Assembly (NCBI GenBank): GCA_022496185.1
Contig: WTXG01000081.1
Location: 62,001-126,000, forward strand
Reading direction: 5' to 3'
From: Multifurca ochricompacta
Taxonomy: Eukaryota; Basidiomycota; Agaricomycetes; Russulales; Russulaceae
Length of the DNA: 64,000 bases
The notes below the pieces were generated by a model. It ran no database searches and was not told the DNA's origin. It saw nothing but the letters and a program-made list of their open reading frames with translations. The position numbers were made by a program, and so were the translations under genes. Positions 252-64,000 of the stretch are shown here, piece by piece (position 1 is the first letter of the stretch; the number at the start of each line of letters is the position of its first letter).

Positions 252-3200
252 TAAGCTCTACCCCATCGGCCTGGGCGCGAGCACTCCATGTTACCTCTGT
301 GTATACTAGTCGATTCAAATCATTGAAAATACCAGTACATTTCGAAACTACACAGAGGACGGCCGACCGAGACATTTTAGTGGACTCTGGAGCCACGGAT
401 AACTTCATCAGCCCACGAATGGTTAAAACCTTAGGACTTGGGATGCAGGCACTTCCCACAGAAAAGAATATCTGGAATATTGACGGGACAGCCAATCGCG
501 CTGGGAAAATCACACACTATACCGACCTGAATGTCCAAGTTGGAGAACAAACGAAAGTTATCCGTTTCCTAATTACCAACTTAGGAGACGAAGACCTTAT
601 CTTGGGATATCCATGGCTTGCTGCATTCGAACCTAAAATCAATTGGACAGACGCGACCATGGACAAAGAATTCTACCCCACTATCATCACGTCAATTGGG
701 TATGATTATGCAGTCAGACATAGAGAAGTAAAAACCACGGATACAAGCGAGGAGGACCTAGGTCGCTGTTATGCAACCAAGGCATCAGAACTAGCCCAAA
801 AGGCAGTACAAGGACAGACAGAAAGGACTTACAGCGACGTAGTACCGCATGTTATCATCGGCATTGGAAGGTATTCTCTGAAGAGGAATCACAGCGGTTC
901 CCACCCTCCAGACCATGGGATCATGCCATAGATCTACTCCCCAACACGCCGGCAGCGATAGATTGCAAAATCTACCCTCTGTCCCAGTCGGAACAAGTAG
1001 CGTTAACGGAGTTCCTCGAAGAGCATTTGGCAAAAGGATATATTCGCCCATCCAAGTCACAGTACGCCTCACCCTTCTTCTTCATCAAAAAGAAGGACGG
1101 CAAGCTACGACCGGTCCAGGACTATCGACGAATCAATGCTTACACTGTGAAAAACGCCTACCCTCTGCCACTTATCTCTGAACTCATTGATACCATGAGG
1201 GACAAGTCCCTCTTCTCCAAGATGGACGTACGGTGGGGCTACAACAACGTCAGGATTAAAGAAGGCGACCAGTGCAAGGCCGCTTTCAAGACAAATCAAG
1301 GGTTGTTCGAACCGAACGTCATGTTCTTTGGTCTCACGAATTCACCGGCAACATTCCAATCCATGATGAATCACATCTTCCGCGACCTTATTCTCACCGG
1401 CGAAGTGGTGGTTTACATGGATGACATTCTAGTAGCCACCCCAGATGACTTAGATCATCATCGAGAGCGTGTACACCAGGTACTGGACATACTACGAGAA
1501 CACGACCTATATCTTAAACCAGCCAAGTGCTCCTTCGAGCAACGAAGCGTCGAATACCTGGGAGTCATTTTGAAAGAAGGACAAGTGCGCATGGACCCCG
1601 TTAAAGTACAAGGGATCCGGGAGTGGCCCGTGCCGACCTGCATCAAGGACGTCCGGTCATTCATCGGATTCTGTAACTTCTATCGGCGCTTCGTCAAGGG
1701 ATTTTCAGGCATTGCACGACCTTTGAACGATCTGTTAAAGAAGGATATGCCATGGCAGTGGGACACAGTACAGCAGCAGGCCTTCGAACAAATTAGGGAT
1801 CTCATCGGCTCAGAACCAGTACTCATCCAACCAGATCTGAGCCGTCCCTTTGAGCTAGAAGTAGATGCCTCTCACTTCGCCAATGGAGCAGTGCTGTACC
1901 AGAAAGATACCACGCAAATACTTCACCCAGTGGCCTATTATTCCGAAACTTTCTCACCAGCTGAACGAAACTATGACATCTGGGATAGAGAACTCCTAGC
2001 CATAGTCAAGGCATTACGACACTGGCGACCTTACCTGGCAGGAACTCCTCATAAAACCATCATCCACACCGATCATTCCAACCTACTATATTGGAAAGAA
2101 CCCCATAAAATCAGTCGGCGCGTGGCACGAGAAGTCCTGGAGCTAGAGGAATATAATTTCACGTTAAAACACATTGCTGGAAGCCAGAACGCCAGAGCGG
2201 ATGCGCTGTCGCGCAGGTCAGATATGCACACGGGCGAAGATGACAACAGCAACATCACCGTTCTACCAGAGGAAGTCTTTGCGAAGACTGCCGTCGTCAG
2301 TCTTCACGACATGGACCTATGGGCACAAGTGTCCCAAAACATGAACCAAGAGCTATGCCGCTCATGGGCTGAGGCACACAATCTGAAAGAAGTGAATGGC
2401 CTTTGGTGGAAAGACGGGGATCGACTCGTTGTCACCGGTGGCGACAACATTAAGAGGGGGGTGATCCATTTTCACCATGACCTCCCCTCTGCTGGTCATC
2501 CCGGCATTACCAACACCTATGCCCTGGCCAAAAGAGACTATTGGTGGCCCAACATGAAAAAGGACGTCGAGAGCTACGTACAGGGATGTGCAGCATGTCA
2601 AGCGAATAAAGTCAACACACACCCGAAAGTCCCACCAGTATACCCCATCACTCCTATCTCGTCAACCCCCTTCCAGACTATCGCTATGGACTTCATAGTC
2701 AAACTACCCAAATCACAGGGTTTCGACACTATCCTCACAATTACCGATCACGACTGTTCCAAGGCGGCCTTGTTTATTCCCTGCAATGAAGCTATTACGG
2801 CCGAAGGAGTGGCGAAGCTCTATTTGAACCATGTATACCGCCACTATGGACTCCCCAGAAAGATTATATCCGACCGAGACACGCGATTCACCTCGGCCTT
2901 CGCTAAAGCTCTGTGCAAAACATTAGACATTACACAGAACATCTCCACGGCTTACCATCCGCAGACGGACGGACAATCCGAGCGAACAAACCAATGGTTG
3001 GAACAGTACCTGCGGTTCTGGTGCAACGCCCGACAGAATGACTGGGCAGAATGGTTATCAACTGCGGAGTTTGCCCACAACTCATGGCCCAACGGGACAA
3101 CGAAAACCACCCCATTTTCCCTTATCATGGGCTGGACTCCACGTACCACATGGGCCGATAAACCCATTAATGTCCCCTCAGTAACCCAGCGGATAAGCCA

Positions 3201-3729
3201 ATGGAAGCAGTTACAGCAATCCGCCAATGAAAACCTGGTAAAGGCACAGCAACTTATGGCAACAGGGCCGAGTACATTCACACCTTATCAGACCAATGAC
3301 TGGGTATGGCTGGAGGGACGAAACATTCACACCTCACACCCCTCAGCCAAACTAGCGCCCCGACGCCACGGACCCTTCCAGATCACACGGAAGCTGTCAG
3401 ATGTGTCTTACGAGCTGCAATTGCCGCCGAAATGGAAGATTCATCCTATCTTCCATGCCAAACTTCTAACCCCGTATAAGGAAACCTCCATGCATGGAAG
3501 GAACTTCCCAAGACCCCCACCTGACCTTATCGACGGAGAAGAGGAGTGGGAAGTAGAACGTGTTCTAGATTCGAAGCGACAAGGCCGAGGGCGCAAACTA
3601 TATTACCTGATCAAGTGGAAAGGATTCCCAGCCTCTGACAACTCGTGGGAGCCAGCCGGGAATATCTTTGCCCCGGACCTTATCTCGGAGTTCCACGCCC
3701 AACACCCAGAAGCGCCCAAGAACAGTTAA
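248..3729 (+). pseudogene. pol: Pol polyprotein of element A (one frameshift)
   Basis: Pol supplies the protease, reverse transcriptase, RNase H and integrase needed for copy-and-paste transposition. Visible motifs: aspartic protease VDSGATDNF; RT active site YMDD near 1415-1426; RNase H region with DASHFANGA and TDHSNLLYW; integrase zinc-binding HHCC ending CAACQANK; the D-D-E triad in MDFIVKL, ISDRDTRF and the QSERTNQW helix; and a C-terminal chromodomain with WEVERVLD and YLIKWKGFP. Compared with intact copy B, one T is missing near 845-852 (TTT to TT), which shifts the frame between protease and RT. The RT-to-chromodomain part is otherwise open to TAA at 3727-3729. The frame opens in the -1 register at the gag stop with no usable ATG. 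Confidence 0.92.
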
Positions 3730-3806
3730 AAGGAGACAACCCAGAACCCCGTCTAGTTCCCCAGTACATGCTCTCCCAGCAACGTTCTAACACCACCCAG
3801 TCTATT

Positions 3807-5006
3807 ATGTCTTTTGTCGCTGCCAACGCCGCCGTCGATGCCTTCACGGCCACCACCGTAGTTGTCGAGAACTTCCCATCCGCTCATCCCTCTACACGCC
3901 CTTCCTCCCCCATCGATTATGACGCCGCCGAGGCCCGAGTCAAAAACCAATCCCCCAACCCCAACGACGACTTCGACCACTGTGAGGAACCCCACCCAAA
4001 TGACCTCTTGGGGATGGAATCGGACGACGAAGCCCCAGAATTTCCATTCTTCGCCAATAACCCGAACTCATCCATGTATTACCCCCTCGAGATCACCATG
4101 GCCGATGGAACGGTCGCCATAGCTAAGTACATCTTCTATACCAATGGAGGGATGGATGTGGCTGGGTGCATGAAGAAGAACGGACCAGTCTATGGGGCCC
4201 CGGTCTACTTGGAAGAAAGATACACGGGGCGTCTCCATCACACCATGAGTGACGAGCAGCTCGGACACCTAGCTGCCGAAGACTCCCGAGCCTTCGCGAT
4301 CGACGAAGTCCTGAGCGACATGCGTCTTCCGCGTCTCAAAGCTGAGGTAATGAGACTGCGGAAGAACCTGACGTTGCGCACGACGCTTAACAAGCAGTAC
4401 AAAGAACATGCGAAGATGATGACACGGCTGACAAGCGGGATGTTCCAGGTGGAACAGGAATTGGTGGAGATTAGGAAGAGGTTGGAAAAGGGGGATGCGT
4501 ATCAGACCATCGCCGAAAGGTACGCTGACACGTATGCACGACCCCTCCCCCCACGATCTTTGGGAGCCGCTCCCACACTGCTGCCGAACCGGTTCGAGAT
4601 GCCGCGAATGCACGAGAACCCCCGAGGAGAGACATGTTGGCGGTGCGACAGCAAATATCACATTAGTTGGAACTGCCCCCTCAACCGCAAGTGGTGTCGT
4701 CATTGTCGCAGCAATCTGCATTGGAGTAGGTTCTGTATTTTCCGTCGCGTCGGCGTCGCTCCGACCATCATCAACCCCTCCGGATGGTGCGGCAAGTGTC
4801 TTCGCCACAACGCGGGACATCGCGAGCTGGACTGCCCTGTCCACGACCTCTGTTACTCGTGTGGACAGCGCGGCCCTTACGGGTTCCTCCGCGCTCACCG
4901 ATGTCCCCAGGACTCAGACAAAGAAAACTACTCCCTGGATGATCGTAATGTAGCCGACGACTATCTAGACCTGGTACAGGATGATGACGGTACGAGTCGT
5001 TTCTAG
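3807..5006 (+). CDS. Post-pol third frame: acidic coiled-coil protein with four zinc knuckles (element A)
   Basis: No standard Ty3/gypsy gene belongs here. The frame opens 77 nt after the pol stop at an ATG conserved as MSFVAANAA in B and similarly in C (MSSSFVAAS). An upstream in-frame ATG at 3768 exists in A and B but not in C. Layout of about 400 residues: Pro/Ser/acidic N-terminus; a conserved block containing IFYTNGGMDVAGC; a predicted coiled coil (LKAEVMRLRKNL onward); and a Cys/His-rich C-terminus with CX2CX4HX4C twice (CWRC..., CRHC...), CX2CX6HX4C (CGKC...) and a looser fourth Cys/His cluster. Binding to nucleic acid is likely from the knuckles; the actual role is unknown. How it is translated (reinitiation, readthrough, spliced or subgenomic RNA) is not visible. 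Confidence 0.8.
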   Translation: MSFVAANAAVDAFTATTVVVENFPSAHPSTRPSSPIDYDAAEARVKNQSPNPNDDFDHCEEPHPNDLLGMESDDEAPEFPFFANNPNSSMYYPLEITMADGTVAIAKYIFYTNGGMDVAGCMKKNGPVYGAPVYLEERYTGRLHHTMSDEQLGHLAAEDSRAFAIDEVLSDMRLPRLKAEVMRLRKNLTLRTTLNKQYKEHAKMMTRLTSGMFQVEQELVEIRKRLEKGDAYQTIAERYADTYARPLPPRSLGAAPTLLPNRFEMPRMHENPRGETCWRCDSKYHISWNCPLNRKWCRHCRSNLHWSRFCIFRRVGVAPTIINPSGWCGKCLRHNAGHRELDCPVHDLCYSCGQRGPYGFLRAHRCPQDSDKENYSLDDRNVADDYLDLVQDDDGTSRF

Positions 5007-5037: not shown

Positions 5038-5630
5038 TGTTACGACCCCTGCCTAGCAACCCAGTTTTCTTTACTCTCCCCAACGACGACCCTTCTCTTC
5101 CACCTACTCTCCACTTCTTGATTACGTCCCCTTCCTGGGACCCATCACGTGCGCTGCTCCCTTCCCCGTGACCGCCTTTGACCTTGTTGATGTTACTGTA
5201 CTTATGTTTGGCTTTCTTATCTCTTATCTCTTATCCCTTATCTCTATGACCGGACACTTACTTAATTCCCTATCAGAAGCCAGGCTTTACGCCCTCCGCC
5301 TTCGTATATTTGGGCCCACATGACTCCGTCTTATCTTATCATTAGACGCTCACCCAATTACGTATATAAGTCCACTGTAGCTACCTTGTAGACCTCAGAC
5401 TCGACTTATTGAATACATCGGTGCTTGTCTTCTGGACTTCCCTTTGAACGCTCTGACTCGATCGTCTCAAGTACTTCTGGTACTCCCCGCTCAACATTGT
5501 CATAGAGTACAGCCTCTTTGACTTTGGCTCCTCCCGTCTTTACTCCAAGGGACCCCATTGGCCCCTTATCTGATACACGAACGAACGCTGTCACACAAGT
5601 CGTGTGGAACGTCCCGCACCGGACGTAACA
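5038..5630 (+). repeat. 3' LTR of element A (593 bp)
   Basis: Begins TGTTACGACC and ends GGACGTAACA, the same termini as the LTRs of B, C and D. It contains a TATA box (TATATAA, 5363-5369) and, 34 bp downstream, AGACTCGACTT (5397-5407), the presumed start of the R region that is complementary to the family's primer-binding site. The upstream part carries several TTATC (GATAA) motifs at 5215-5243. Confidence 0.92.
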
Positions 5631-5978
5631 TAATACCAGTGCTTCTTCGCTATGTTCTTCTATGTACTCCTCTGGTTCGGAGTCCGTGACAATGGCCGGA
5701 GGGTTTTCTCTCCACGGGCCTAGTCCAAATTCAGGTGGGGCAGGTCTGGTTGTAACCCAAGAGTTTCGACTGTCCGAGTATCGGATACAATACCAAACTC
5801 TTTTCTCTTCATTGTATTCTACCGGTTGGTATCTTCCGTCGTGATAGACGTAGTATCCAAACTCGGATTCAAAGTCTTTCCAGGCGGCAGAGCCAAGTAC
5901 TTGCTGCGAAAGATTATTCTCATCTCTGCGTTCGATGAGTTCTTCCTGGAAGAGGGTCTGACTGCGGCTGGAAGCCAC
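5631..5978 (-). pseudogene. gag: Gag N-terminal fragment of element D
   Basis: Starts MASSRSQTLFQEEL at 5978 and reads 116 codons before being interrupted by the LTR of element A. It shares the family's N-terminal gag domain, including FGYYVYHDGRYQPVEY and EFGLGPWRENPP. This part of gag lacks the capsid core and zinc knuckle, so the fragment cannot function alone. The start is supported by identical Met positions in B (53303) and C (45015). Confidence 0.85.
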
Positions 5979-5984
5979 TGTGAG

Positions 5985-44406: not shown

Positions 44407-44995
44407 TGTTATGACCCCTGCCTAGCAACCCGATTTTCTTCACAATCCCCAGCGATGACCCTACCCGTCCCCCTACTCTACATTTCCTGATCACGTCCCC
44501 TTCCTGGGACCCGTCACATGCTTTACTTCCTTCCCTGTGATTGACTTTGTCTCTGTTTGCCTCGCTTTGTCTATGACTGGCTTCTTTTCCCTTATCTCTT
44601 ATCCCTTATCGTATGACCGGACACTTACTTAGTTCCCTATCAGAAGCTAGGCTTTACGCCCTTCGCTTTCGTATATTTGGGCCCACATGATTCCGTTCTC
44701 TTATCTCATAGACGCCCATCCGATTATGTATATAAGTTCGCTGTAACTACAATGTAGACCCCAGACTCGACTTATTGAATACATCGGTGCTTGTCTTCTG
44801 GACTTCCCCTTGAAACCTCTGATTCGATCGTCTCAGTGCTTTTGGCACTTTCCGCTCAACATTGTCACTTGGGAACAGCCCCGTTGACTTTGACTCATCC
44901 CCTTATACTCCAAGAGGTCTTATTGATCTCTTATCTGAACGAACGAACGAAGCTGTCGCACAAGTCGTGTAGAACGTCTCACACCGGACGTAACA
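44407..44995 (+). repeat. 5' LTR of element C (589 bp)
   Basis: TGTTATGACC...GGACGTAACA. It differs from the 3' LTR (58770-59358) by about eight substitutions and no indel, every one at a CpG position. It includes a TTATC cluster (44590-44610), TATA box, R start and the primer-complementary 11-mer. Confidence 0.95.
44729..44773 (+). promoter_or_regulatory. Core promoter and R-region start of element C
   Basis: TATATAA at 44729-44735 and AGACTCGACTT at 44763-44773. The 34-bp spacing from the TATA box to this 11-mer is the same in A (5363/5397), B (53589/53555, minus) and the 3' LTR of C (59092/59126), so transcription probably begins at or next to the 11-mer. Confidence 0.6.
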
Positions 44996-45008
44996 TCAAG
45001 TCGAGTCT
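44996..45008 (+). promoter_or_regulatory. Self-primer binding site of element C
   Basis: TC followed by AAGTCGAGTCT (44998-45008). The 11-mer is the exact reverse complement of AGACTCGACTT at 44763-44773 in the LTR and stops matching on both sides. It does not look like the complement of a common tRNA 3' end (no TGG directly after the LTR). Confidence 0.75.
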
Positions 45009-45014
45009 CTCACA

Positions 45015-46433: not shown

Positions 46434-47006
46434 TGTTACGTCCGGTGTGAGACGTCCTGCACGACTTGTGCGACAGCTTTGTACGTGTATTCAGATAAGA
46501 GGCCAATAGGGCTTCTTGGAGTTTAGATGGATGAGTCAAAGTCAAAGGGGCTGTTCCCTAGTGACAGTGTTAAGTGGGAAGTGCCAAAAGCACTGAGACA
46601 GTCGAGTCAAAGGTTTCAAGGGAAGTCCAAAAGACAAACACCGATGTATTCAATAAGTCGAGTCTGAGGTCTACAGGGTAGCTACAGTGGACTTATATAC
46701 GTAATTCAGTGAGCGTCTACGAGATAAGAACGCGGAGTCAAGTGGGCCCGAATATCCGAAAGCGGAGGGCGTAGAGCCTAGCTTCTGATAGGGTATTAAG
46801 TAAGTGTCCGGTCGTACGATAAGGAGATAAGTGATAACGAAGATAAGAGTAGGTAAACATAAACAAACAAGAAGGTCACGGGGAGGGACGAAGGGCATGT
46901 GACGGATCCCATGATGGAGACGTGATCTGGTAGTGGAGTGTGGGCGGAAGAGAGGGGTCGTCGTTGGGCAAGAAAAAGAATACGGGCAAAGACGGGGTTC
47001 GTAACA
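46434..47006 (-). repeat. 3' LTR of element B (573 bp)
   Basis: Plus-strand TGTTACGTCC at 46434 and TTCGTAACA at 47006. It is adjacent to the minus-strand polypurine tract (plus coordinates 47007-47020, TCACCCCCTCTTCT). It is almost identical to 53323-53896. Confidence 0.95.
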
Positions 47007-47037
47007 TCACCCCCTCTTCTGGTTCTAGCAGACCCGG

Positions 47038-48237
47038 CTAGAAACGACTCGTACCGTCATCATCCTGCACCAGCTCCAGATAATCATCGGCTACATTACA
47101 ATCATCCATCGTGTAATTCTCCTTGTCCGCATCCTGGGGGCACTGGTGAGTACGGAGAAACCCGTAAGGGCCGCGTTGTCCACATAGGCGGCATACGTCG
47201 TGAATGGGACAATCCAACTCCCGATGTCCTGCATTGTGACGCAGGCATTTGCCACACCATCCAGATGGGTTGGTGATCGTCGGCGCGACTCCTACTCGGC
47301 GGAAGATACAGAACCTGCTCCAATGCAGATTGCTGCGACAGTGCCGGCACCACTTGCGATTGAGGGGGCAATTCCAGCTGATGTGGTACTTACTGTCGCA
47401 CCTCCAGCATGTCTCCCCCCGAGGGTTCTCGTGCATGCGCGGCATCTCAAATCGGTTTGGCAACAGCACCAGGGCAGCCCCTAGTGATCGTGGCGGGAGA
47501 GGTCGGGCATAGGTGTCAGCGTACCTCTCAGCAATCGTTTGATATGCGTCCCCCTTCTCCAACCTCTTTCGGATCTCCACTAGCTCCTGCTCAATTTGGA
47601 ACATTCCGTTGGTCAGCTGGGCCATCATCTTGGCATGTTCCTTGTACTGTTGATTGAGTGTATTGCGCAAAGTTAGATTCTTCCGCAGCCTCATTACCTC
47701 GGCTTTGAGGCGCGGAAGTCGCATGTCACTCAGTACCTCATCGATGGCAAAGGCCCGGGGATCTTCGGCAGCTAAGTGCCCCAGCTGTTCATCGGTCATC
47801 GTGTGATGCAGACGGCCTGTATACCTTTCCTCCAGATAGACCGGAGCTCCATAAACTGGGCCGTCCTTTTTCATGCACCCAGCAACATCCATCCCTCCGT
47901 TGGTGTAGAAGATGTATTTGGCGATGGCAATGGTTCCATCGCCCATGGTGATCTCCAGTGGATAGTACGTGGAGGAGTTAGGGTTGTTCAGGAAGAAGGG
48001 AAATTCCGGGACCTCGTCGTCCGACTCCATACCCACCAGGTCGTTTGGGTGCGGCTCCTCACAGTGTTCGAAGTCGTTGTTGGGGTTGGGAGATTGGTTC
48101 TTGACTCGAGCTTCGGCAGCCTCGTAGTCAATAGGTGAAGAGGGACGCGTAGAGGGATGGGCAGAGGGGAAACTCTCGACAACTACGGTGGTAGCGGTGA
48201 AGGCGTCGATGGCAGCGTTGGCAGCGATGAAAGACAT
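47038..48237 (-). CDS. Post-pol third frame: zinc-knuckle protein (element B)
   Basis: Counterpart of the frames at 3807 and 57533. Conserved start MSFIAANAAIDAF at 48237 (a further in-frame ATG at 48276). About 400 residues with acidic N-terminus, IFYTNGGMDVAGC block, coiled coil and Cys/His clusters CWRCDSKYHISWNC, CRHCRSNLHWSRFC, CGKCLRHNAGHRELDC and a fourth CRLCGQRG type. No stop or frameshift, although this element's gag and pol each carry a nonsense codon. The stop at 47038 lies just upstream of the polypurine tract, so it is the last gene of the element. Confidence 0.82.
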   Translation of the reverse strand: MSFIAANAAIDAFTATTVVVESFPSAHPSTRPSSPIDYEAAEARVKNQSPNPNNDFEHCEEPHPNDLVGMESDDEVPEFPFFLNNPNSSTYYPLEITMGDGTIAIAKYIFYTNGGMDVAGCMKKDGPVYGAPVYLEERYTGRLHHTMTDEQLGHLAAEDPRAFAIDEVLSDMRLPRLKAEVMRLRKNLTLRNTLNQQYKEHAKMMAQLTNGMFQIEQELVEIRKRLEKGDAYQTIAERYADTYARPLPPRSLGAALVLLPNRFEMPRMHENPRGETCWRCDSKYHISWNCPLNRKWCRHCRSNLHWSRFCIFRRVGVAPTITNPSGWCGKCLRHNAGHRELDCPIHDVCRLCGQRGPYGFLRTHQCPQDADKENYTMDDCNVADDYLELVQDDDGTSRF

Positions 48238-48315
48238 AATTGATTGTGTAGTGGTAGGACGTTGCTGAGGGAGCATGTACTGGGGAGCTTCAGTTGGGGT
48301 TTGGGGTTGTTCCTT

Positions 48316-51300
48316 TTAATCATCCCTGGGCGCTTCTGGGTGCCGGGTATGGAACTCTGAGATAAGAACCGGGGCGAAGATATTCCCGGCTGGCTCCCAC
48401 GAACTGTCAGAGTCTGGGAATCCTTTCCACTTGACTAGGTAATGCATCTTGCGCCCTCGGCCTTTTCTCATTGAGTCTAGAATGCGCTCCACTTCCCATT
48501 CCGCTTCGCCGTCGATAAGGTCAGGCGGGGGTCTTGGGAAGTTCTCCCCATGAAGGGACGTCTCCTTGTATGGCGTCAGAAGCTTGGCGTGGAAGACAGG
48601 GTGAATCTTCCATTTGGGCGGCAATCGCAGTTCGTATGACACATCTGACAGCTTCCTTGTGACTTGGAAGGGTCCATGGCGTCGAGGCGCTAGTTTAGCG
48701 GTGGGGTGTGACGTGTGAATGTTTCTCCCCTCGAGCCAGACCCAGTCATTGGGTTGATAAGGTGTGAATGTGCTTGGCTGCGCAGCTAGGGCTTGCTGTG
48801 CCTTTGCTAGATTTTCATTGGCTGATTGTCGTAAATCTTCCCATTGGCGCATCCGTTGGGTTACCGAAGGGATGTTGGTGGGCTTATCCGTCCACGTGGT
48901 ACGCGGGGTCCAGCCCATGATAAGGGAGAAGGGGGTAGCCTTTGTCGTTCCGTTGGGCCATGAGTTGTGTGCAAACTCCGCAGTTGACAGCCATTCTGCC
49001 CAGTCATTTTGTCGTTCATTACACCAGAACCGAAGATACTGTTCCAACCATTGGTTCGTCCGTTCAGACTGTCCATCTGTCTGTGGATGGTAGGCCGTGG
49101 AGATGTTCTGTACAATGCCCAGTGTTTTACACAGGGCTCTGGCAAACGTGGATGTAAACCTGGTATCTCTGTCGGATATGATCTTTTTGGGGAGACCATA
49201 ATGTCGGTATACATGATCCAGGTACAGTCTTGCCACTCCTTCTGCTGTGATTGTCTCATTACAGGGTATGAACAGGGCTGCCTTGGAACAATCATGGTCG
49301 GTGATCGTAAGGATGGTATCAAAGCCCAGTGACTCAGGTAGTTTAACAATGAAGTCCATTGCAATGGTTTGGAAAGGGGTTGACGATATGGGGGTAATAG
49401 GTTGTATTGGCGGGACTTTTGGGTGTGTGTTCACTTTGTTTGCTTGACATGCGGCACATCCCTGCACGTAACTTTCAACGTCCTTTTTCATGTTGGGCCA
49501 CCAGTAGTCGCGTTTGGCAAGGGCATAGGTGTTGGCAATGCCTGGGTGGCCAGCAGAGGGAAGGTCGTGGTGAAAATGGATCACCCCCCTCTTAATGTTG
49601 TCGCCACCGGTGACAACGAGTCGATCCCCATCTTTCCACCAAAGGCCGTCTAGTTCCTTCAAATTGTGCGCATCGGCCCATGAGCGGCATAGTTCCTGGT
49701 TCATGTTCTGTGACACTTGTGCCCACAGGTCCATGTCATGGAGACTGACTACGGCGGTCTTCGCAAACGCTTCCTCAGGAAGAACAATAATGTCATTATT
49801 GTCATCCTCTCCGGTATGCATATCCGGTCTTTGTGACAACGCGTCTGCTCTCGCATTCTGACTTCCTGCGATATGTTTTAGGGTGAAATTGTACTCTTCG
49901 AGTTCCAAAACCTCTCACGCTACGCGTCGGCTGATTTTATGAGGTTCCTTCCAATACAACAAGTTGGAATGATCGGTGTAGATGATAGTCTGATGGGGAG
50001 TTCCTGCTAGGTAAGGCCTCCAGTGTCGTAAAGCCTTAACAATGGCTAGGAGCTCTCTATCCCAGATGTCATAATTTCGTTCTGCCGGCGAGAAAGTCTC
50101 AGAGTAATATGCCACTGGGTGGAGTGTTTGCGTGGCATCTCTTTGGTATAGTACTGCTCCATTCGCGAAGCGAGAGGCGTCTACTTCCAGTTCAAAGGGG
50201 CGACTCAGGTCGGGTTGAATGAGTACTGGCTCCGAGCCGACAATGTCTCTGATCTGCTCAAAAGCCTGCTGCTGCGCGGTCCCCCAATGCCATGGTATGT
50301 CCTTCTTTAAAAGATCATTTAATGGTCGTGCAACGCCGGAAAATCCCTTGACAAAACGTCGGTAGAAGTTACAGAATCCAATGAATGATCGGACGTCTTT
50401 GACACAGGTCGGTACAGGCCATTCTCGAATTCCTTGCACTTTGATGGGGTCCATGCGTACTTGTCCTCCCTCTAGAATGACTCCCAGGTATTCGACACTT
50501 CGTTGTTCAAAGGAGCACTTGGCTGGTTTAAGGTATAAGTCGTGTTCCTGTAGGATGTCTAGCACCTGGTGTACTCGTTGTCGGTGATGGTCTAGGTTGT
50601 CTGAGGTGGCTACAAGGATGTCGTCCATATAGACTATGACCTCACCAGTAAGAATAAGGTCGCGGAATATGTGGTTCATCATGGACTGAAACGTTGCCGG
50701 TGAATTTGTAAGGCCGAAGAACATGACATTCGGCTCGAACAACCCTTGATTCGTTTTGAACGCCGCTTTACATTGGTCACCTTCCTTGATCCTGACATTG
50801 TTGTAACCCCATCGCACATCCATTTTGGAAAAGAGGGATTTATCCCTCATGGTGTCGATGAGTTCAGAAATCAGTGGTAGGGGATAGGCATTCTTTACAG
50901 TGTACGCATTGATCTTTCGGTAATCCTGGACAGGTCGCAGTTTGCCATCCTTCTTTTTGATGAAGAAGAAGGGCAAGGCATACTGTGACCTAGATGGGCG
51001 AATGTATCCCTTGGCCAGATGTTCTTCCAGGAATTCCGTAAGTGCAGCTTGCTCAGACTGGGACAGAGGGTAGATTTTACAGTCTATGGCGGCCGGTGTA
51101 TCAGGGAGAAGGTCGATGGTGTGATCCCATGGTCGTTCTGGAGGAAAACGGTGTGACTCTTCCTCGGAGAATACCTTCCAATGCCGCTGGTAAACATCCG
51201 GCACTACCTCGTGATAGGTTTTCTCAGTCTGTCCCTGTACCGCCTTCTGGGCCAACTCCGATGCTTTGGTGACGTAACAGCAGCCGGGGTCTTCTTCTGT

Positions 51301-51795
51301 ACGCACAGCTTTTACTGCTGGATGTCGGATCGCATAATCATACCCTAGCGACGTAATGATTGTTGGGTACGAGTCTTTGTCCATAGTTGCGTCAGCCCAG
51401 TTTATCTTTGGTTCGAATGCTGCAAGCCATGGGTAACCCAAGATAAGGTCCTCATCTCCTAGGTCTGTGATCAGGAAGCGAATGGTCTTTGTCATTTCCC
51501 CAACCTGGACTTGTAGATCCGTGTAGTGGGTGATTTTGCCAGCGCGATTGGCCGTTCCATCAATATTCCAAATATTTTTTTCTTGGGGAAGTTCCAGCCT
51601 TCCCAGGCCCATTGTCTTAATCAGTCGTGGGTGAATGAAGTTGTCTGTGGCTCCAGAGTCCACTAATATATCTCGGTCGGCCATCCTCTGTGTAGTTTCA
51701 AAATGAACTGGTATTTTTAATGACTTGAATCGACTAGCATACACAGAGGTGACATGGAGTGCTCGTGCCCAGGCCGATGGGTTTGAGCCTAACAA
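48316..51795 (-). pseudogene. pol: Pol of element B, single TGA
   Basis: One continuous frame of about 1159 codons with protease (VDSGATDNF), RT (YMDDILVAT), RNase H (DASRFANGAVLY), integrase HHCC and D-D-E, and C-terminal chromodomain (WEVERILDSMRKGRGRK, YLVKWKGFP). A TGA at 49917-49915 within RNase H replaces the Arg of RVAREVLELE in copies A and C (CGA to TGA). The frame opens at 51795 in the -1 register relative to gag, at the TTTTTG run. This copy shows that the PR-to-RT join is a single frame, which identifies the deletions in A and C. Confidence 0.93.
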
Positions 51796-53303
51796 AAATC
51801 CTTCTTCGTAAACGCCTTCTCTACTAAGATGGCGCGTACTTCTTCGCTCTCCTTCATCATACTAGCCCATATATCCTGAGCCTTTTCTTCTTTTGATCGT
51901 TTGTCCACAGTGGGTGGGTTATTATGAACAGGAGCCTCGGCTGTGGTGGTTGCAGCCGCAGCGCGTACTCCCTTCTTTGGACAGTCCCAGGACATATGCC
52001 CTAGTGCTCTACAGCGGAAGCACCGCCCTTCTTTCATCAACGCTTGTCGTTCATCTTCTGTGAGCGCTGCCCAGGCTCGGGCACGATCTGCAGAGGTGTC
52101 CATGGCATTTGGATCTCTCTGGGTGTGCGGGGCAGGTTTCACTCCGAAAGCCGCTTTCCATTGGTCTCGCGTCTTTCCCTTTTTAGTATCAACTCCAAAG
52201 CGCGTTTGGAAGTCGAGGTAGTCTTGTTGCTGTCGTCGGGCGGCGTCGACCCAAGTGTCCCAGTCATGGGGGTGGTGGAACTGGATTATGTTCTTGACCA
52301 GGGGATTGGGCAACCCTTGTGAAAAGAGGTCCAACGTGGCCTCCTCATCTGTGTCATAGCCAGCCCTATTTGCGAGACTCCTGAATTTAGCGACGTATGC
52401 GTCCAATTCTCCTTTTTCCATCCTAAGGGACTTGAGTTCTCAGGCTGCCTTCTGCTTGGCCTGCCCATCCGTGAAGGCCTCCTTAAACCATTCCGCGATG
52501 GTCTCCCACAGACCTTCACTCGTGGTACGACGCCCACTCTCAACTTGTTCGTTCAGCCATTCCAGCTGTTCCATGGTCCAGTCGTCAACCGCATCCCCTC
52601 GAATCAGAGAGAGGAACAAATTGGCCCGTTGAAATGGGTTAACAATTTGTGGGACGTCGTGGTTGAAGTTCTTAAAGGTCGTGAACTCCAGCATGAATTT
52701 CTTGCTTTGTGAGCGGTCCCCAGTGAATGTCTGGGGGAGCACTCCTGATAATCGTCCGGATGGGGGAGGGATATTTGGTGGTGCCGCCACTGGGGCTGGT
52801 GGGGCGGGATCTGGCAGCTGAGCGGCGATGGTAGACATGTGTGGAAGGGATGGGGTGACGGTATCTGTGGATCGTATCGATATCTGGGGGGTTGTCAAAG
52901 CAGGGGCTCTGAACGTGACAACCTTATGTGCAACCGGAGACGTAGTCGCTGCTAATGCCGGTGCTTCCTCTTCGCTGGGTTCTTCTACGTACTCCTCTGG
53001 TTCGGAGTCCGTGACAATGGCTGGAGGGTTTTCTCTCCACGGGCCTAGTCCAAATTCAGGTGGGGCGGGTCCTGTGGTGACCCAAGAGTGTCGACTGTCC
53101 GAGTATCGGATACAATACCAGACTCTCTTTTCGTCGTCATATTCTACCGGTTGGTATCTTCCGTCGTGATAGACGTAGTATCCAAACTCGGATTCAAAAT
53201 CCTTCCAGGTGGCAGAGCCAAGTACTTGCTGTGAAAGATTATTCTCGTCTCTGCGTTCGATGAGTTCTTCCCGGAAGAGGGTCTGACTGCGGCTGGAAGC
53301 CAC
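51789..53303 (-). pseudogene. gag: Gag of element B, single TGA
   Basis: Starts MASSRSQTLFREEL at 53303, as in C and D. It shows capsid-like helices, zinc knuckle CFRCRALGHMSWDC and C-terminus KAFTKKDFC. A TGA at 52442-52440 interrupts AA(R)ELKSLRMEKGEL; C reads Arg (CGG) there, so CGA to TGA is the simplest change. Otherwise open for about 505 codons. It forms virus-like particles in related elements. Confidence 0.92.
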
Positions 53304-53309
53304 TGTGAG

Positions 53310-53322
53310 AGACTCGACTTGA
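53310..53322 (-). promoter_or_regulatory. Self-primer binding site of element B
   Basis: On the minus strand, TC then AAGTCGAGTCT directly after the LTR end (plus coordinates 53320-53310 for the 11-mer). It is exactly complementary to the LTR sequence AGACTCGACTT, which reads on the minus strand from 53555 to 53545. Confidence 0.75.
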
Positions 53323-53896
53323 TGTTACGTCTGGTGTGAGACGTCCTGCACGACTTGTGCGACAGCTTTGTACGTGTATTCAGATAAGAGGCCAATAGGG
53401 CTTCTTGGAGTTTAGATGGATGAGTCAAAGTCAAAGGGGCTGTTCCCTAGTGACAGTGTTAAGCGGGAAGTGCCAAAAGCACTGAGACAGTCGAGTCAAA
53501 GGTTTCAAGGGGAAGTCCAAAAGACAAACACCGATGTATTCAATAAGTCGAGTCTGAGGTCTACAGGGTAGCTACAGTGGACTTATATACGTAATTCAGT
53601 GAGCGTCTACGAGATAAGAACGCAGAGTCAAGTGGGCCCGAATATCCGAAAGCGGAGGGCGTAGAGCCTAGCTTCTGATAGGGTATTAAGTAAGTGTCCA
53701 GTCGTACGATAAGGAGATAAGTGATAACGAAGATAAGAGTAGGTAAACATAAACAAACAAGAAGGTCACGGGGAGGGACGAAGGGCATGTGACGGATCCC
53801 ATGATGGAGACGTGATCTGGTAGTGGAGTGTGGGCGGAAGAGAGGGGTCGTCGTTGGGCAAGAAAAAGAATACGGGCGAAGACGGGGTTCGTAACA
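53323..53896 (-). repeat. 5' LTR of element B (574 bp)
   Basis: TGTTACGTCTGG at 53323, TTCGTAACA ending at 53896; on the minus strand it carries TATATAA (53589-53583) and R start at 53555. Followed by the AAAAG duplication and the remainder of element C gag. Confidence 0.95.
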
Positions 53897-53987
53897 AAAA
53901 GGCTCAGGATATATGGGCCAACATGATGAAGGAAAGTGAAGAAGTGCGCGCCATACTAGTAGAGAAGGCGTTTGCAAAAAAGGATTT

Positions 53988-56900: not shown

Positions 56901-57463
56901 ATCAATGTCCCGTCAGTAACTGAACGGCTCGGCCAATGGGAAGAGCTGCGGCAATCAGCCAATGAGAATCTGGTAAAGGCGCAACAGCTTCTGGCAGCAC
57001 AGCCAAGCACATTCACACCTTATCAGACCAATGACTGGGTATGGCTTGAGGGTAGGAATATTCACACGTCACATCCCTCAGCCAAATTAGCGCCCCGACG
57101 TCACGGACCCTTCCAAATCACAAGGAAGCTGTCAGACGTCTCTTACGAATTGCAGTTGCCGCTGAAATGGAAGATCCATCCAGTCTTCCATGCCAAGCTT
57201 CTGACCCCTTACAAGGAAACCTCCATTCACGGAGAGAATTTCCCGAGACCCCCACCTGACCTTATCGACGGCGAAGAGGAATGGGAAGTGGAGCGCTTCT
57301 AGACTCCAAGCGACAAGGCCGAGGGCGCAAGTTGTATTACCTGATCAAGTGGAAAGGTTTCCCAAACTCTGACAACTCGTGGGAACCAGCCGGGGATATC
57401 TCTGCCCCGGACCTGATTGCGGAGTTCCATTTACGACATCCCCAAGCGCCCAAGAACAGTTAA
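53988..57463 (+). pseudogene. pol: Pol of element C with six one-base deletions
   Basis: It contains all pol domains (VDSGATDNFIH; YMDN in place of YMDD at the RT active site; DASHFANGAVLY; integrase HHCC and D-D-E; chromodomain), but in six frame segments. Comparison with A and B places single-base losses near 54600 (CGG to CG), 54992, 55270 (CTCC to CTC), 55990, 56263 and 57296. The RT motif YMDN (Asp to Asn; GAC to AAC, a G to A change) would itself abolish catalysis. The integrase QSER reads QSEW. Stop TAA at 57461-57463. Clearly non-functional unless some deletions are sequencing errors. Confidence 0.9.
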
Positions 57464-57532
57464 AAGAGGGGCCAATTCCAGACTTCCCCCCAGAACAACA
57501 CTTCACCAGCAACGTCCTAACCACACTCTAAC

Positions 57533-58738
57533 ATGTCTTCCTCTTTCGTCGCCGCCTCTGCCGCCATCAATGCCTTCACTGCCACCACTGTGGTCGTGGA
57601 AGCCTTCCCTTCTGCTCACCCCTCCTCTCGTCCCTCCTCCCCTATCGACTATGAGGCTGCGGAGGAACGCGTTAAGAACCAATCACCCAACCCAAATCAT
57701 GACTTTGAACACTGCGAGGAGCCACACCCCAACGATCTGGTGGGTATGGAGATGGACGACGACGTCCCCGAGTTCCCGTTTTTCGCCAACAATCCGAACT
57801 CGTCGATGTACTTCCCGCTCGAGATCACCATGGCGGATGGCACCAAGGAGATAGCTAAGTACATCTTCTATACCAATGGAGGGATGGATGTCGCAGGATG
57901 TATGAAGAAGAATGGTCCCGTTTATGGGGCCCCGGTTTATTTGGAAGAACGCTATACAGGACGACTGCATCACACCATGAGTGATGAGCAACTGGGGCAT
58001 CTAGCTGCTGAAGATTCCCGCGCCTTTGCAATCGACGAAGTACTGAACGACATGCATCTCCCGCGCCTCAAAGCCGAGGTAATGAGGCTGCGGAAGAACC
58101 TGACGCTGTGTACGACTCTCAATAAACAGTACAAAGAGCACGCGAAGATGATGACGAGGTTGACCAGTGGGATGTTCCAGGTTGAGCAGGAGCTGGTAGA
58201 GATTCGAAAGAGGTTGGAAACGGGGGATGCGTACCAGACCATCGCTGAAAGGTACACTGACACATATGCACGACCCCTCCCTCCACGATCGTTGGGGGCT
58301 GCACCAAGGCTGTTGCCCAATCGGTTCGAAATGCCGCGGATGCACGAGAACCCCCGCGGAGAAACATGCTGGCGGTGTGACAGTAAGTACCACATCAGCT
58401 GGAACTGTCCCCTCAACCGCAAGTGGTGTCGCCATTGCCGCAGTAACCTGCATTGGAGCCGGTTCTGTATTTTTCGCCGTGTAGGCGTTCCTCCGACAAT
58501 CATCAATCCATCCGGCTGGTGCGGCAAGTGCCTGCGTCACAACGCGGGGCATCGTGAGTTGGACTGCCCTATCCACGACCTCTGTCACTCGTGTGGACAG
58601 CGCGGCCCCTACGGCTTCCTTCGCGCACATAGGTGTCCCCAGGATGAGGACAAGGAAAACTACACCATGGACGATCGTAATGTAGCTGATGATTACCTGG
58701 ACTTGGTACAGGACGATGATGGTACGAGTCGTTTCTAG
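57533..58738 (+). CDS. Post-pol third frame: zinc-knuckle protein (element C)
   Basis: ATG at 57533 (MSSSFVAASAAINAF), 401 residues, TAG at 58736-58738, 31 nt before the 3' LTR. Residues 178-230 form a probable coiled coil (RLKAEVMRLRKNL...EIRKRLETGD). Cys/His clusters: 279-292 (CX2CX4HX4C), 299-312 (CX2CX4HX4C), 330-345 (CX2CX6HX4C), 351-368 (CX2CX11HXC). The frame is fully open although pol directly upstream has six deletions. No signal peptide or membrane helix, so it is not an envelope protein. Function unknown; RNA or DNA binding is the simplest guess. Confidence 0.82.
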   Translation: MSSSFVAASAAINAFTATTVVVEAFPSAHPSSRPSSPIDYEAAEERVKNQSPNPNHDFEHCEEPHPNDLVGMEMDDDVPEFPFFANNPNSSMYFPLEITMADGTKEIAKYIFYTNGGMDVAGCMKKNGPVYGAPVYLEERYTGRLHHTMSDEQLGHLAAEDSRAFAIDEVLNDMHLPRLKAEVMRLRKNLTLCTTLNKQYKEHAKMMTRLTSGMFQVEQELVEIRKRLETGDAYQTIAERYTDTYARPLPPRSLGAAPRLLPNRFEMPRMHENPRGETCWRCDSKYHISWNCPLNRKWCRHCRSNLHWSRFCIFRRVGVPPTIINPSGWCGKCLRHNAGHRELDCPIHDLCHSCGQRGPYGFLRAHRCPQDEDKENYTMDDRNVADDYLDLVQDDDGTSRF

Positions 58739-58769
58739 CTGGGTCAGCTAGAGCCAGAAGAGGGGGTGA

Positions 58770-59358
58770 TGTTACAACCCCTGCCTAGCAACCCGATTTT
58801 CTTCACGATCCCCAGCGATGACCCTACCCGTCCCCCTACTCTACATTTCCTGATCACGTCCCCTTCCTGGGACCCGTCACATGCTTTACTTCCTTCCCCG
58901 TGATTGACTTTGTCTCTGTTTGCCTCGCTTTGTCTATGACTGGCTTCTTTTCCCTTATCTCTTATCCCTTATCGTATGACCGGACACTTACTTAGTTCCC
59001 TATCAGAAGCTAGGCTTTACGCCCTTCGCTTTCGTATATTTGGGCCCACATGATTCCGTTCTCTTATCTCATAGACGCCCATCCAATTACGTATATAAGT
59101 TCGCTGTAACTACAATGTAGACCCCAGACTCGACTTATTGAATACATCGGTGCTTGTCTTCTGGACTTCCCCTTGAAACCTCTGATTCGATCGTCTCAGT
59201 GCTTTTGGCACTTTCCGCTCAACATTGTCACTCGGGAACAGCCCCATTGACTTTGACTCATCCCCTTATACTCCAAGAGGTCTTATTGATCTCTTATCTG
59301 AACGAACGAACGAAGCTGTCGCACAAGTCGTGTAGAACGTCTCACACCGGACGTAACA
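58770..59358 (+). repeat. 3' LTR of element C (589 bp)
   Basis: TGTTACAACC...GGACGTAACA, followed by the ACAAT duplication at 59359-59363. TATATAA at 59092-59098, R start 59126-59136. It differs from the 5' LTR only at CpG positions; at the fourth CpG-like site the two LTRs carry TG and CA respectively, as expected from deamination of opposite strands. Confidence 0.95.
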
Positions 59359-59930
59359 ACAATGCTCAATTTTCTGTTGACTGTGGTGAGATTGCTGCAT
59401 TAAGGAGGCCCCAAGATGCAATAATGTAACACCTGGTGCAGGCATTCAGCACAATGTGTGACTTTGTCATGTAGCAGAACTATGAAGTCAAATTGTTACA
59501 ACCCCAATCTTTTCCCTGACCCTTCCTTGATGCCATATCCACTCCTGACCTCTGCCTTCTGCACATATGACCCTTGCCTCTACTGCCTGATGCCTGTGGC
59601 TTGTATGCCCAGGACCCCACCCTGATGCCTGTGACATGACACTCTCAGGACCCCTTACCCTTGATACCTGTGTAGAACAATCATGCTGCTGGTTTATACT
59701 GACTGCAGTTAGTAGCAGTGAGGCTAGACAAAAGACAAGTAACTTCAGAGGTAGAAGGAACTCTATAGATACTATCTACTGACCTAGACAAAAGACAAGT
59801 ACTACAAAGAGCATTAGTCTAAAGGAAGTAGAGAGTAGAGTAAAGGACTTACACTTCAGAGGTAGAAGGAACTCTGAAGTGTAAGAGATGAAACAGACAC
59901 CCTTATATACCCATGGGGGCCAGGGGAAAT
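59359..59930. other. CpG-poor relic DNA with LTR fragments
   Basis: 59425-59493 resembles, inverted, the end of the LTR of element E (TGTAACACCTGGTGCAGG...). A second LTR-like start, TGTTACAACCCC, occurs at 59494. The right part contains duplicated words CTAGACAAAAGACAAGTA and CTTCAGAGGTAGAAGGAACT. CpG is almost absent. No coding frame. Confidence 0.5.
59848..59885. repeat. Perfect 13-bp inverted repeat (hairpin)
   Basis: CTTACACTTCAGA (59848-59860) and TCTGAAGTGTAAG (59873-59885) with a 12-nt loop. It lies in old repeat DNA just left of element E; there is no T tail to suggest a terminator. Confidence 0.8.
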
Positions 59931-60545: not shown

Positions 60546-62132
60546 GTGGCTTCATCTAGTCAAAGCCAGACCTTGCACAACAAAGAACTCATCAACTGCC
60601 AAGACGAGGATAATCTTTCACAACAAGTCCTTGGCTCTGCCATCTGGAAAGACTTTGAAACCGAGTTTGGATACTACATCTATCACAATGATCAGTACCA
60701 GCCAGTTGAATATGATGAACAGAAATGGGTCTGGTACCATATCCATTACTCTAGAAGCCATCGTTCCTGGGTTACCACAGGACCTGCCCCACCAGAGTAC
60801 AGCTTAGGACCTTGGAGAGAGAATCCTCCAGCCATTGTCACAGACTCAGAAAACGAAGAATATATTGAAGAAAGCAGTGAAGACACACAGTTCATAGCCA
60901 CTAGTTTTACGGCTCTGATAGTTGCACCAGAGAGTACCACGTTCAGAACATCTGCTTTGGACTCTCCCCAGATTACATGGCAAACCTCCAATACTCTGAC
61001 CATCACCTACCCAATCATGTCCACCATTGCTGCACAGTTACCTGACCCAGCTCCAGCTGTCCCTGCACTGAACCTCCCTCCCCCATCAGGACGCCTTACA
61101 GGAGTCTTGCTGACCATGTTTATGGGTGATTGTTCTCAGAGCAAAAAGTTCATGCTCAAGTTCAAGACTTTTAAAAACTTCAATCACAATGTCCCACAAA
61201 TAGTGAACCCCTTCCAGCACACCAACCTCTTCCTCTCACTCATCAGAGGGGACTCCATAGATGACTGGACAATGGAGCAGATAGAATGGCTGAATGACAG
61301 AGTTACAGCCGGAACCAGGACCACAGATGAGGATCTGTGGGATATCGTGGTGCAAAGATTCAAAGACGCCTTCACAGATGGGCAGGCCAAACAGAAGGCT
61401 GCCAGAGAATTGAAATCCCTGAAGATGGAAAGAGGGGATTTAGATGGCTATGTAGCCAAATTTTGCAACCTGGCCAAATGAGCAGGGTACGATGTAAATG
61501 AAGAGGTGATGCTCAACCTCTTCTCCCAGGGATTACCTAATCCCTTGGTGAAAAATATCATCCAATTCCATCACCCCGAGTCATGGGGCCAGTGGACAAA
61601 CACTGCCAGAAGACAGCAGCAGGATTATTTGGATTTCCAGACTCACTTTGGCATGGATACCAAGAAGGGCAAAACCCGTGACCAATGGAAAGCGGCATTT
61701 GGGGTAAAACCTACAACCCCACAAGACCCAAATGCCATGGATACCTCTGCAGACTGCACCAAAGCCCGTGCAGCACTCACTGATGACAAAAAGAAAAACC
61801 TCATGAAAGAAGGGTGCTGTTTCCACTGCCGGGCCCAAGGACATATGTCATGATTTTGCCCCAAGAAAACAATCCATGCCGCTGAAGCTACTGTGGCTAC
61901 CACCACCATGATGTCACCTGTGCAGAATCTGCCCACTCCTATCAAAGAAAATCCAGTAACTGCCTTGAAGACAAAAGAACAGAAGGCAGAAGCCATCTGG
62001 GAACATATGATGAATGAAGATGAGGCAGTCCATGCCTTGCTGGTTGACAAGGCCTTTGGCCACAAGGATTTTGATTGGCTTGACCCCATTGGCCTGGGCA
62101 AGAGTGCTTCATGTAACTTCTGTGTACACTAG
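60546..62132 (+). pseudogene. gag: Gag of element E with two TGA
   Basis: Begins MASSSQSQTLHNKEL at 60546. It keeps the family's N-terminal domain (FGYYIYHNDQYQPVEY), capsid-like part (WTMEQIEWLNDRV) and a knuckle CFHCRAQGHMS followed by a stop. Stops at 61479-61481 (between Leu-Ala-Lys and Ala-Gly-Tyr, Arg in B and C) and 61851-61853 (Arg or Trp in the knuckle of the others). Both are in the same frame, with no frameshift up to about 62075. Confidence 0.85.
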
Positions 62133-64000
62133 TCGTTTCAAGTCTTTAAAAATACCAGTACACTTTGAAACCAAACAGAAGATGGCCAACAGATGGATAT
62201 TGATTGACTCTGGAGCAACAGATAACTTCATCAGTCAACGACTTCAGAAAGCATTAGGATTGGGTGTTACAAACTACCCAGCGTACCAAACAGACGGCAA
62301 GACGTGGGGGACACACAAGCAGTGACAGTAGCCGCGCGGGGTCCGCAAGGACATCACCGGCTTAGTCATGATGTCCCACGCCGAAGTCCAGAAGACAGGA
62401 TACGGCATGAGGTACAGAAGCAGATCACGTGACAGTAAGGTTTGATGCCTCGTGTACAGAAGGACCCTGAACCTTAGTTGACGTGGGAAGACGGTGGCGC
62501 TGGTTCTGATGGAAGGTTCCATAGTCACACGTCCAGAACCACAAGCATCTAGATAAGACTGATAAGAACGGATGACTAAGCTAGTACCAGCATGTATATA
62601 TACCCTAGCTAGTCTCGCTCAGATGGTTCCCCATCTTGAGCTCCTGTGACAATCAGTAGCCTTGTGGACCTTTAACTTCCTTCCTTGCGTCTCACCACCC
62701 GGACTCCTCTCTTTGGTGCTTTGTCCTTCTGGGGCCTTGCACACTGATTGGCTTGTGACTGAGCGTAGCGTTGGACTTATTGTCTTCCGCATCGACCCAA
62801 GATCGTCCCGACCTTGTCTCTGTGACCTAGCCGCCCGCACTCAACTGCGTATGCCCCTCTGAGCGTAACATTGGGGACACAGTTACTTCCCCAGGAGAAG
62901 AATATTTGGAACATAGACAGGACGGCCAACAAAGCTGGAAAGATCACACATTGTTGTGATTTGGAAGTACAGGTTGGAGAGTGGACCAAACAGCTCTGAT
63001 TCCTCATCACCAACCTGGGAGACGAAGATATGGTCTTGGGATATCCATGGCTGGCGGCATTTGAGCCAAAAACCAACTGGGCAGAGGCAACCATGGACAA
63101 GGACTTTTATCCAGTCATCATTATGTCCCTGGGGTACGATTACGCTGCATGACACCCTCTCACTCATGCCATTGTTATGGGATCGGCCATCACCTGGAGT
63201 GATGTGGAACCTGTGGATCAGGTATACTGTTATGTCACAAAAGCATCAGAGCTGGCTCAGGCAGAAGTGCAGAAGAACCCAGAAAAGACATTCAATGAAG
63301 TAGTCCCCGTAGAGTATCACTGACATTGGAAGGTCTTCTCAGAGGAGGAATCACAACGTTTCCCTCCCTCTCGACCCTGGGATCATGCCATTGATTTTGT
63401 CCCAAACACCCTGCAGTTGGTTGACTGCAAGATATACCTGTTGTCTCAGCTGGAAAAAGAGGCACTTTCTACCTTCCTAGAGGAACATCTGGCAAAAGGA
63501 TACATACGACCCTCTAACTTGCCCTATGCCTCACCCTTCTTCTTCATTAAAAAGAAGGACGGGAAACTGCAACCAGTACAGGACTACAGATGAATCAACA
63601 AACTTATGGTGAAAAACAACTACCTGCTTCCTCTGATCTCAGAAATCATTGATAAAATGCATGACAAAGCCTTATTTTCAAAGATGGACATCCGCTGGGG
63701 TTATAACAACATCTGTATTTGAGAAGGTGACCAGCCCAAAGCTGCCTTCAAGACCAATCAAGGACTTTTTGAACCCAGTGTCATGTTCTTTGGCTTAACG
63801 AACTCACCTGCAACCTTCCAATCAATGATGAATCATATTTTCCGAAACCTGATCCTCACAGAAGAAGTAGTCATATATATGGACAACATTCTAGTGGCCA
63901 CAAGAAATGACATTGATCATCACCATACCCATGTTCATGAAGTATTGGATATCCTAGCAAAACATGACCTCTACCTGAAACCAGCCAAGTGTTCCTTTGA
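62071..64000 (+). pseudogene. pol: Pol of element E (protease and RT part), five TGA
   Basis: LAWARVLHVTSVYTSRF and IDSGATDNFIS mark the protease; after the inserted solo LTR the frame resumes (NIWNI-like, GDEDMVLGYPWLAAFEP). The RT region shows AKGYIRPSN, FFFIKKKDGK, FSKMDIRWGYNN and YMDNILVA near the window end. Stops at 62997, 63150, 63321, 63591 and 63720 all lie in one frame, at positions where A or B usually have Arg. As in C, the RT active site reads YMDN. The gene runs off the window. Clearly inactive. Confidence 0.88.
62265..62870. repeat. Solo LTR of a different family (606 bp) inside element E
   Basis: TGTTACAAACTACCC...GAGCGTAACA, flanked by TTGGG (62260-62264) and TTGGG (62871-62875). 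Removing it and one TTGGG restores the protease frame of E. Contains a TATATATA box near 62593-62601. Sequence is unlike the A-E LTRs except for the conserved ends. It retains many CpG, so it is younger than E. Orientation cannot be fixed without an internal region; the TATA-like box reads on the plus strand. Confidence 0.9.

Follow-up and report, generated by a model that had tools for sequence, protein, structure and literature searches.

Chromoviruses are usually described with gag and pol only. In the fungus Multifurca ochricompacta, a 64,000-nucleotide stretch of contig WTXG01000081.1 (hereafter the window) holds three copies, A, B and C, of one chromodomain Ty3/gypsy family in which a further open frame lies between pol and the 3′ long terminal repeat (LTR). 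A preliminary description, made from the letters of the window, had proposed that this frame is a conserved third gene, and the locus thus raises the question of whether it is a gene at all and what its product might do for the element. Here we show that the frame, orf3, exists as a conserved gene under purifying selection behind pol, that its product is built with four zinc knuckles, and that it has a separate start in the family of copies A–C (family 1) and is fused in frame to Pol in a sister family (family 2). It is best explained as a genuine third gene needed by its fungal chromovirus lineage.

The elements have the order LTR–gag–PR–RT–RNaseH–IN, with two LTRs and a target duplication, as in a chromovirus. 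Pfam places an aspartyl protease in the 5′ part of pol and RT, RNase H, integrase, SH3_Tf2-1 and a chromodomain in the remainder; the chromodomain (PF00385, E = 3.3e-14) occupies residues 941–991 of a 1,000-residue pol piece, after SH3_Tf2-1. A chromodomain is likewise present at the integrase C terminus of family 2, which starts in the window at about 60.5 kb and has a third protein around 52% identical to that of family 1 (L039). The frame of about 400 residues that the preliminary description placed between pol and the 3′ LTR is confirmed as open in copies A, B and C alike, with lengths of 399–412 residues; for the copy at 47038–48237 the frame stands and the strand is corrected to minus, as the plus strand has stops. 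In copy C, pol is split into several frames and the third frame is intact. Self-matches also reveal an inverted LTR plus gag start (5631–6578) and a solo-like LTR (43263–43839), both of the same family, and a short tandem repeat array (12945–13178) that appears as a ladder.

Table 1. Features of the chromovirus copies in the window (window coordinates). LTR ends of copy C are the ends of BLAST matches and lie a few bases beyond the LTR proper.
Feature	Position	Strand	Basis or remark
Copy A	upstream part beyond window start; ends at 5631 with 3′ LTR	+	
pol of copy A (RT, RNase H, integrase, SH3, chromodomain; open frame)	724..3729	+	Pfam
Third gene of copy A, ATG at 3768 or 3807	3768..5006	+	open frame
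3′ LTR of copy A	5038..5631	+	
Copy C, split by copy B	44407-46433 plus 53897-59362	+	target duplication ACAAT
5′ LTR of copy C	44407..44999	+	98.5% identical to its 3′ LTR
Presumed RNA 5′ end of copy C, AGACTCGACTT	44763..44773	+	reverse complement of 44998-45008
Presumed self-priming site of copy C, AAGTCGAGTCT	44998..45008	+	directly after 5′ LTR
Copy B, whole element nested in copy C	46434..53896	-	target duplication AAAAG (5 bp)
LTRs of copy B	46434-47006 and 53323-53896	-	99.0% identical
Third gene of copy B, ATG at 48276 or 48237	47038..48276	-	open frame
pol stop codon TAA of copy C	57461..57463	+	72 nt before third ATG
Pyrimidine tract plus CAG in copy C spacer	57483..57493	+	splice-acceptor-like
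Third gene of copy C, 401 residues	57533..58738	+	open frame; genomic copies; purifying selection
Predicted long coiled-coil-like helix of copy C, residues 164-245	58022..58267	+	AlphaFold2
Four CCHC-like zinc knuckles of copy C, residues 279-368	58367..58636	+	
3′ LTR of copy C	58770..59362	+	BLAST match
Family-2 relative, gag and pol start	60546..64000	+	third gene beyond window end, at about 66834 in window numbering

The 5′ leaders have regularities of their own. Sixteen were taken and 14 aligned, L072 and L077 being dropped because the expected sequence was absent. In all 14, the start of AGACTCGACTT follows that of TATATAAG by 34 nt in the LTR (44729–44773 in copy C), and in 13 its exact 11-nt reverse complement lies directly behind the 5′ LTR. 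These features were seen in copies B and C, L039 and L071–L082, and we take the arrangement to be Tf1-like self-priming. In gag, a conserved N-terminal region of about 152–155 codons precedes the first shared in-frame ATG. All 14 leaders retain a GTG (45015–45017 in copy C) flanked by A at −3 and G at +4; in 10 of them no ATG occurs from the presumed RNA start up to it, so that gag may start at this GTG.

A search of the whole genome (53.8 Mb in 605 contigs) returned 2,218 first-look candidates for orf3, of which 103 were scored; the family therefore has at least 103 copies, every scored one at least 87% identical, and 79 of the 103 have no internal stop by count from the table. Approached from pol, orf3 was present behind 20 of 20 additional pol ends, split into two frames in several. 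These were hand-picked, as ones not noticed in the third-gene lists, from 150 family-1-like pol ends scored among the 1,753 candidates of a chromodomain search, with 1.1 kb read behind each. Beyond this genome, a first search yielded one homolog and a profile search of public assemblies 160; among the 120 of these that were listed, 30 have at least 420 residues, 15 have 300–419 and 75 are shorter, and two are themselves M. ochricompacta entries. The sources (ncbi, jgi and ena), mostly short contigs, are probably metagenomes, and no homologs were found in viral contigs, prokaryote genomes or plasmids.

Selection was assessed in 45 aligned family-1 copies, 31 of them without a stop. Summed over the 465 pairs of stop-free copies, pN/pS is 0.096 in the gene frame, compared with 2.1 and 2.5 when the remaining forward frames are read and 1.9, 0.19 and 3.4 on the reverse strand; we take the low value of 0.19, in the second reverse frame, to mirror the codon structure of the gene. 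Variable columns, defined by a second allele in at least three copies, number 65, 44 and 347 at codon positions 1, 2 and 3 (401 each). Binned by dS, the ratio falls from 0.22 to 0.03 in orf3 (194 of 465 pairs, the others being saturated or out of range) and from 0.38 to 0.06 in the last 1.5 kb of pol (103 of 136 pairs from the 17 stop-free of 51 copies, with pairs left out on the same grounds). At dS 0.05–0.15 the orf3 value exceeds that of pol (0.22 versus 0.15) and at larger distances it is the lower of the two, so that purifying selection on the two is comparable. In family 2 the ratio is 0.10 for orf3 (12 copies), against 1.3–1.9 in its other forward frames, and 0.16 for the pol end with linker (11 copies); over both, the other forward frames span 1.1–1.9. 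In neither family, then, is the ratio near 1, the outcome that the preliminary description had named as fatal to its proposal; the opposite is observed.

Stops are present in 14 of the 45 aligned copies, one or two in each and 18 in total; all are TGA, and at 11 of these sites the reference copy reads CGA, a pattern resembling C-to-T decay at CpG. Together, the selection and the stop pattern mark the orf3 frame as that of a gene decaying after insertion. Distances between copies in orf3 and in the pol end correlate (Mantel r = 0.57, 43 copies, none of 1,000 permutations as high), which fits joint inheritance of orf3 and pol, not perfectly. In the genome-wide table of orf3 copies, stops are again nearly all TGA, with one TAA. 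The proposal of a conserved third gene in a chromodomain Ty3/gypsy family is thus supported by the genomic copies, the pol ends, the selection and the Pfam assignments.

The four CCHC-like knuckles attributed to the protein are present, with the spacings CX2CX4HX4C, CX2CX4HX4C, CX2CX6HX4C and CX2CX11HXC in order. In a 50-row alignment every one of 33 long members, among them the three window copies, keeps all four; across the 45 family-1 copies, knuckles 1, 2 and 3 occur in all and knuckle 4 was counted in 27, the site being cut by alignment gaps in the other 18. The knuckle region is basic (17 K/R and 7 D/E), and the N terminus and C-terminal tail are acidic. Compared with known proteins, knuckles 1 and 2 of the orf3 profile match the knuckle pair of LIN28A (E = 5.4e-6) and the retroviral nucleocapsid (E = 2e-4 and weaker). 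Only 3 of the 50 single members match Pfam zf-CCHC at E ≤ 0.1, and no Pfam family fits orf3 convincingly. A coiled coil had also been claimed, and AlphaFold2 predicts one long coiled-coil-like helix, with ten-residue pLDDT means of 65–92 over residues 151–250 and a confident part at about 151–245; outside the helix the model is poor (mean pLDDT 54.9 and pTM 0.28 overall), and a structure search of the PDB with it gave nothing usable (best E = 1.9).

How orf3 comes to be expressed appears to differ between the families. In family 1, 71–81 nt separate the pol stop from the orf3 ATG in 43 of 46 copies, and orf3 occurs in all three frames relative to pol (13, 19 and 14 of the 46), so that it has its own start; the same three frames rule out stop-codon readthrough or a fixed frameshift from pol. 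The spacer drifts, with many indels, around one kept motif, [CT]4CAG[AT]A, which each of 45 copies has no more than 60 nt from the pol end. As a control, a 60-nt window was slid along orf3 and the pol end: none of 115 windows in the orf3 coding sequence had the motif in any of 45 copies, and among 74 windows over the pol end the highest count was 4 of 42 copies. The conserved pyrimidine tract plus CAG resembles a 3′ splice site. Inspection by eye revealed no consistently conserved 5′ donor in the 14 aligned leader and gag starts and none in the last 250 nt or so of pol; GTACGT or GTATGT occurs in the gag of many, not all, of the 14. Also disfavoured is the idea that a short intron takes out the pol stop and so joins Pol and orf3 in one frame, as the pol end shows no conserved donor and non-triplet indels in the leader after the CAG also count against it. 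We treat splicing of the family-1 orf3 mRNA as a lead, with coupled reinitiation as the alternative. The leader itself comes in two forms: in copies A and B a further in-frame ATG stands 13 codons ahead of the other (3768 and 48276), 3 nt past the conserved CAG, and adds 13 residues (MLxQQR...) in that subfamily; the other subfamily has a non-coding leader instead, of which the CAGCAACGTCCT block is still largely conserved.

In family 2, the pol end is in frame with orf3 in 10 of 11 copies, and 7 of the 11 junctions have no stop. Two further junctions carry a TGA stop where other copies read CGA, CAA or CAT; of those remaining, L039, still in frame, has a stop and roughly 600 nt inserted, and L070 has a frameshift. 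One more copy contains a natural open frame of 889 residues that joins the Pol end to a complete orf3, in the order integrase zinc domain, integrase core, SH3, chromodomain, short linker and orf3 with its four knuckles. Open frames of more than 420 residues hold 44 of 150 family-2 matches; the third protein, at 396 residues, would not by itself account for that length. No fused Pol–orf3 protein was found in other sequence data, and the fusion is known from one genome. Pol and the third gene lie in one frame at L039, L060–L070 and L083, a natural test case for modular evolution.

What might such a protein do? The preliminary description had suggested a nucleic-acid chaperone or an RNA-binding regulator, and a role of that kind is still our best guess in view of the knuckle matches to LIN28A and nucleocapsid. 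Specifically, we propose, giving the idea roughly an even chance of being right, that the orf3 product is an RNA-binding accessory protein associated with the particle, serving as a second nucleic-acid chaperone or as a packaging factor. We favour this reading because of the Pol fusion in family 2 and because the paired knuckles point to RNA or single-stranded DNA. The protein would dimerize through its predicted helix, bind element RNA with its paired nucleocapsid-like knuckle module, and act inside or on the particle. In family 1 it would be made from its own ATG about 75 nt past the pol stop; in family 2 it would come as the C-terminal portion of the Pol polyprotein, from which the protease may release it, and delivery with Pol would place it in the particle beside integrase. 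Several considerations pull the other way: the structure model is poor outside the helix and matches no solved fold, the fused form was seen in this genome only, and Gag already has a single CCHC knuckle of its own, so that a second chaperone is not obviously needed. Moreover, a CAG conserved ahead of the ATG suggests splicing of the mRNA, which a regulatory protein would fit equally well.

The main rival follows from that hint. On this account orf3 would be a regulator of RNA export like Rev or CERV, translated from a spliced subgenomic mRNA formed at the pyrimidine tract–CAG, which enters the nucleus, binds unspliced genomic RNA and promotes its export. We regard this as a serious but doubtful possibility. 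The near absence of the acceptor-like motif from control windows, set against its presence in every aligned family-1 copy, argues for it, and the RNA-binding knuckles and putative dimer helix are compatible with it; a precedent exists in CERV of the Cer1 element of Caenorhabditis elegans, an accessory protein made from spliced mRNA and, according to the available text, needed for export of unspliced genomic RNA (PMC10309623). Against it stand the lack, by eye, of a consistently conserved donor in either of the regions inspected, and the family-2 arrangement, in which Pol-fused orf3 would come solely from RNA that has already been exported.

The two origins offered by the preliminary description fare less well. 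A host zinc-knuckle gene, captured and acting on the host (for example, on silencing or host RNA) and not on element RNA, we consider unlikely: orf3 has no detectable relation to gag outside one knuckle, which points to a source elsewhere, and no Pfam family is convincing for it, yet no host relative was met among the loci examined, all of which are element copies. A diverged gag duplicate is very improbable, and the comparison of profiles spoke against it. The terminal Gag knuckle is spaced as orf3 knuckles 1 and 2 are, but with knuckles included it is just the knuckle that aligns (E = 0.008–0.017, probability below 5%, against a shallow gag profile of four sequences), and a knuckle-less orf3 profile reaches E = 0.37 over 17 columns against the same four-sequence profile.

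That the protein is an envelope-like or membrane fusion protein, as its position after pol could suggest, is more improbable still. Copy C alone has a borderline hydrophobic stretch, residues 4–22, with a Kyte–Doolittle mean of 1.6; this is the highest value among the 33 long members, and the stretch is not conserved, homologs having DEYESVGERGAYRNAVLA in its place. No conserved hydrophobic helix was found in the 33 long members, window copies among them, in agreement with the earlier statement that the protein has no membrane helix, and four knuckles stand where an ectodomain would be. Least probable of all, to the point of being negligible, is an unselected leftover frame: the stops in 14 aligned copies would allow it, and it is refuted by the pN/pS of 0.096 and the excess of third-position (347) over second-position (44) variation, with the uniformly TGA stops, 11 of the 18 at reference CGA codons, also against it.

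Returning to an RNA-handling role, we can sketch, tentatively and with more doubt than for the particle-associated protein itself, a broader picture in which this fungal lineage evolved a dedicated RNA-handling accessory protein outside Gag, with a spliced subgenomic mRNA as its source in one family and a place at the C terminus of Pol in the other. If so, orf3 would have no precedent known to us among fungal LTR elements as a Rev-like or second-nucleocapsid-like factor. Whatever its role, conservation of orf3 is roughly as strict as that of the copying enzymes; the family has at least 103 copies, homologs exist elsewhere, and proteins in public assemblies that have had no name until now would gain one. 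Its two arrangements, separate and Pol-fused, allow a comparison of how an accessory RNA-binding protein enters the life cycle of a retroelement.

We rate the elements as chromoviruses with an accessory gene, and the four-knuckle third gene appears to be undescribed: the literature searched, which covered few subscription journals, yielded no description of one in a fungal chromovirus. Novikova et al. 2010 (PMC2864245), on fungal chromodomain Gypsy elements, show an ‘additional ORF of unknown function’ in drawings of fungal LTR elements, and the elements here are likewise of chromodomain type; the available text assigns that frame, which may or may not correspond to orf3, no function and mentions no knuckles, selection or fusion. 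Extra genes of other kinds have been described in insect, nematode, plant and rotifer LTR elements, as far as the accessible portions of those reports extend. Those closest in position, from what is given in the parts available, are the ORF3s of bdelloid rotifers (PMC5408684) and the TRP28 ORFs of plant Retand (PMC11963269), which like orf3 are non-envelope genes after pol. Unlike orf3, the former encode enzymes or membrane proteins and the latter are antisense and possibly DNA-binding, and neither description, in those parts, includes a four-knuckle protein or a Pol fusion. The brtn gene of Boty elements in Botrytis, known to us by title, is another non-envelope extra gene of an LTR element.

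CERV resembles orf3 more closely in kind. Also a non-envelope accessory protein of an LTR element, it has, in the text available, a potential leucine zipper, a possible C4 zinc finger and conserved splice acceptors (PMC10309623); it differs in having exons in common with gag and a multi-exon mRNA, whereas orf3 lies in its own frame after pol, carries four CCHC knuckles and is only putatively spliced. At the level of the protein module, the nearest likeness is to retroviral nucleocapsid and LIN28A, which have paired CX2CX4HX4C knuckles with a short linker, as orf3 does; orf3 departs from both in carrying four knuckles, two of them oddly spaced, outside Gag and after a predicted long helix.
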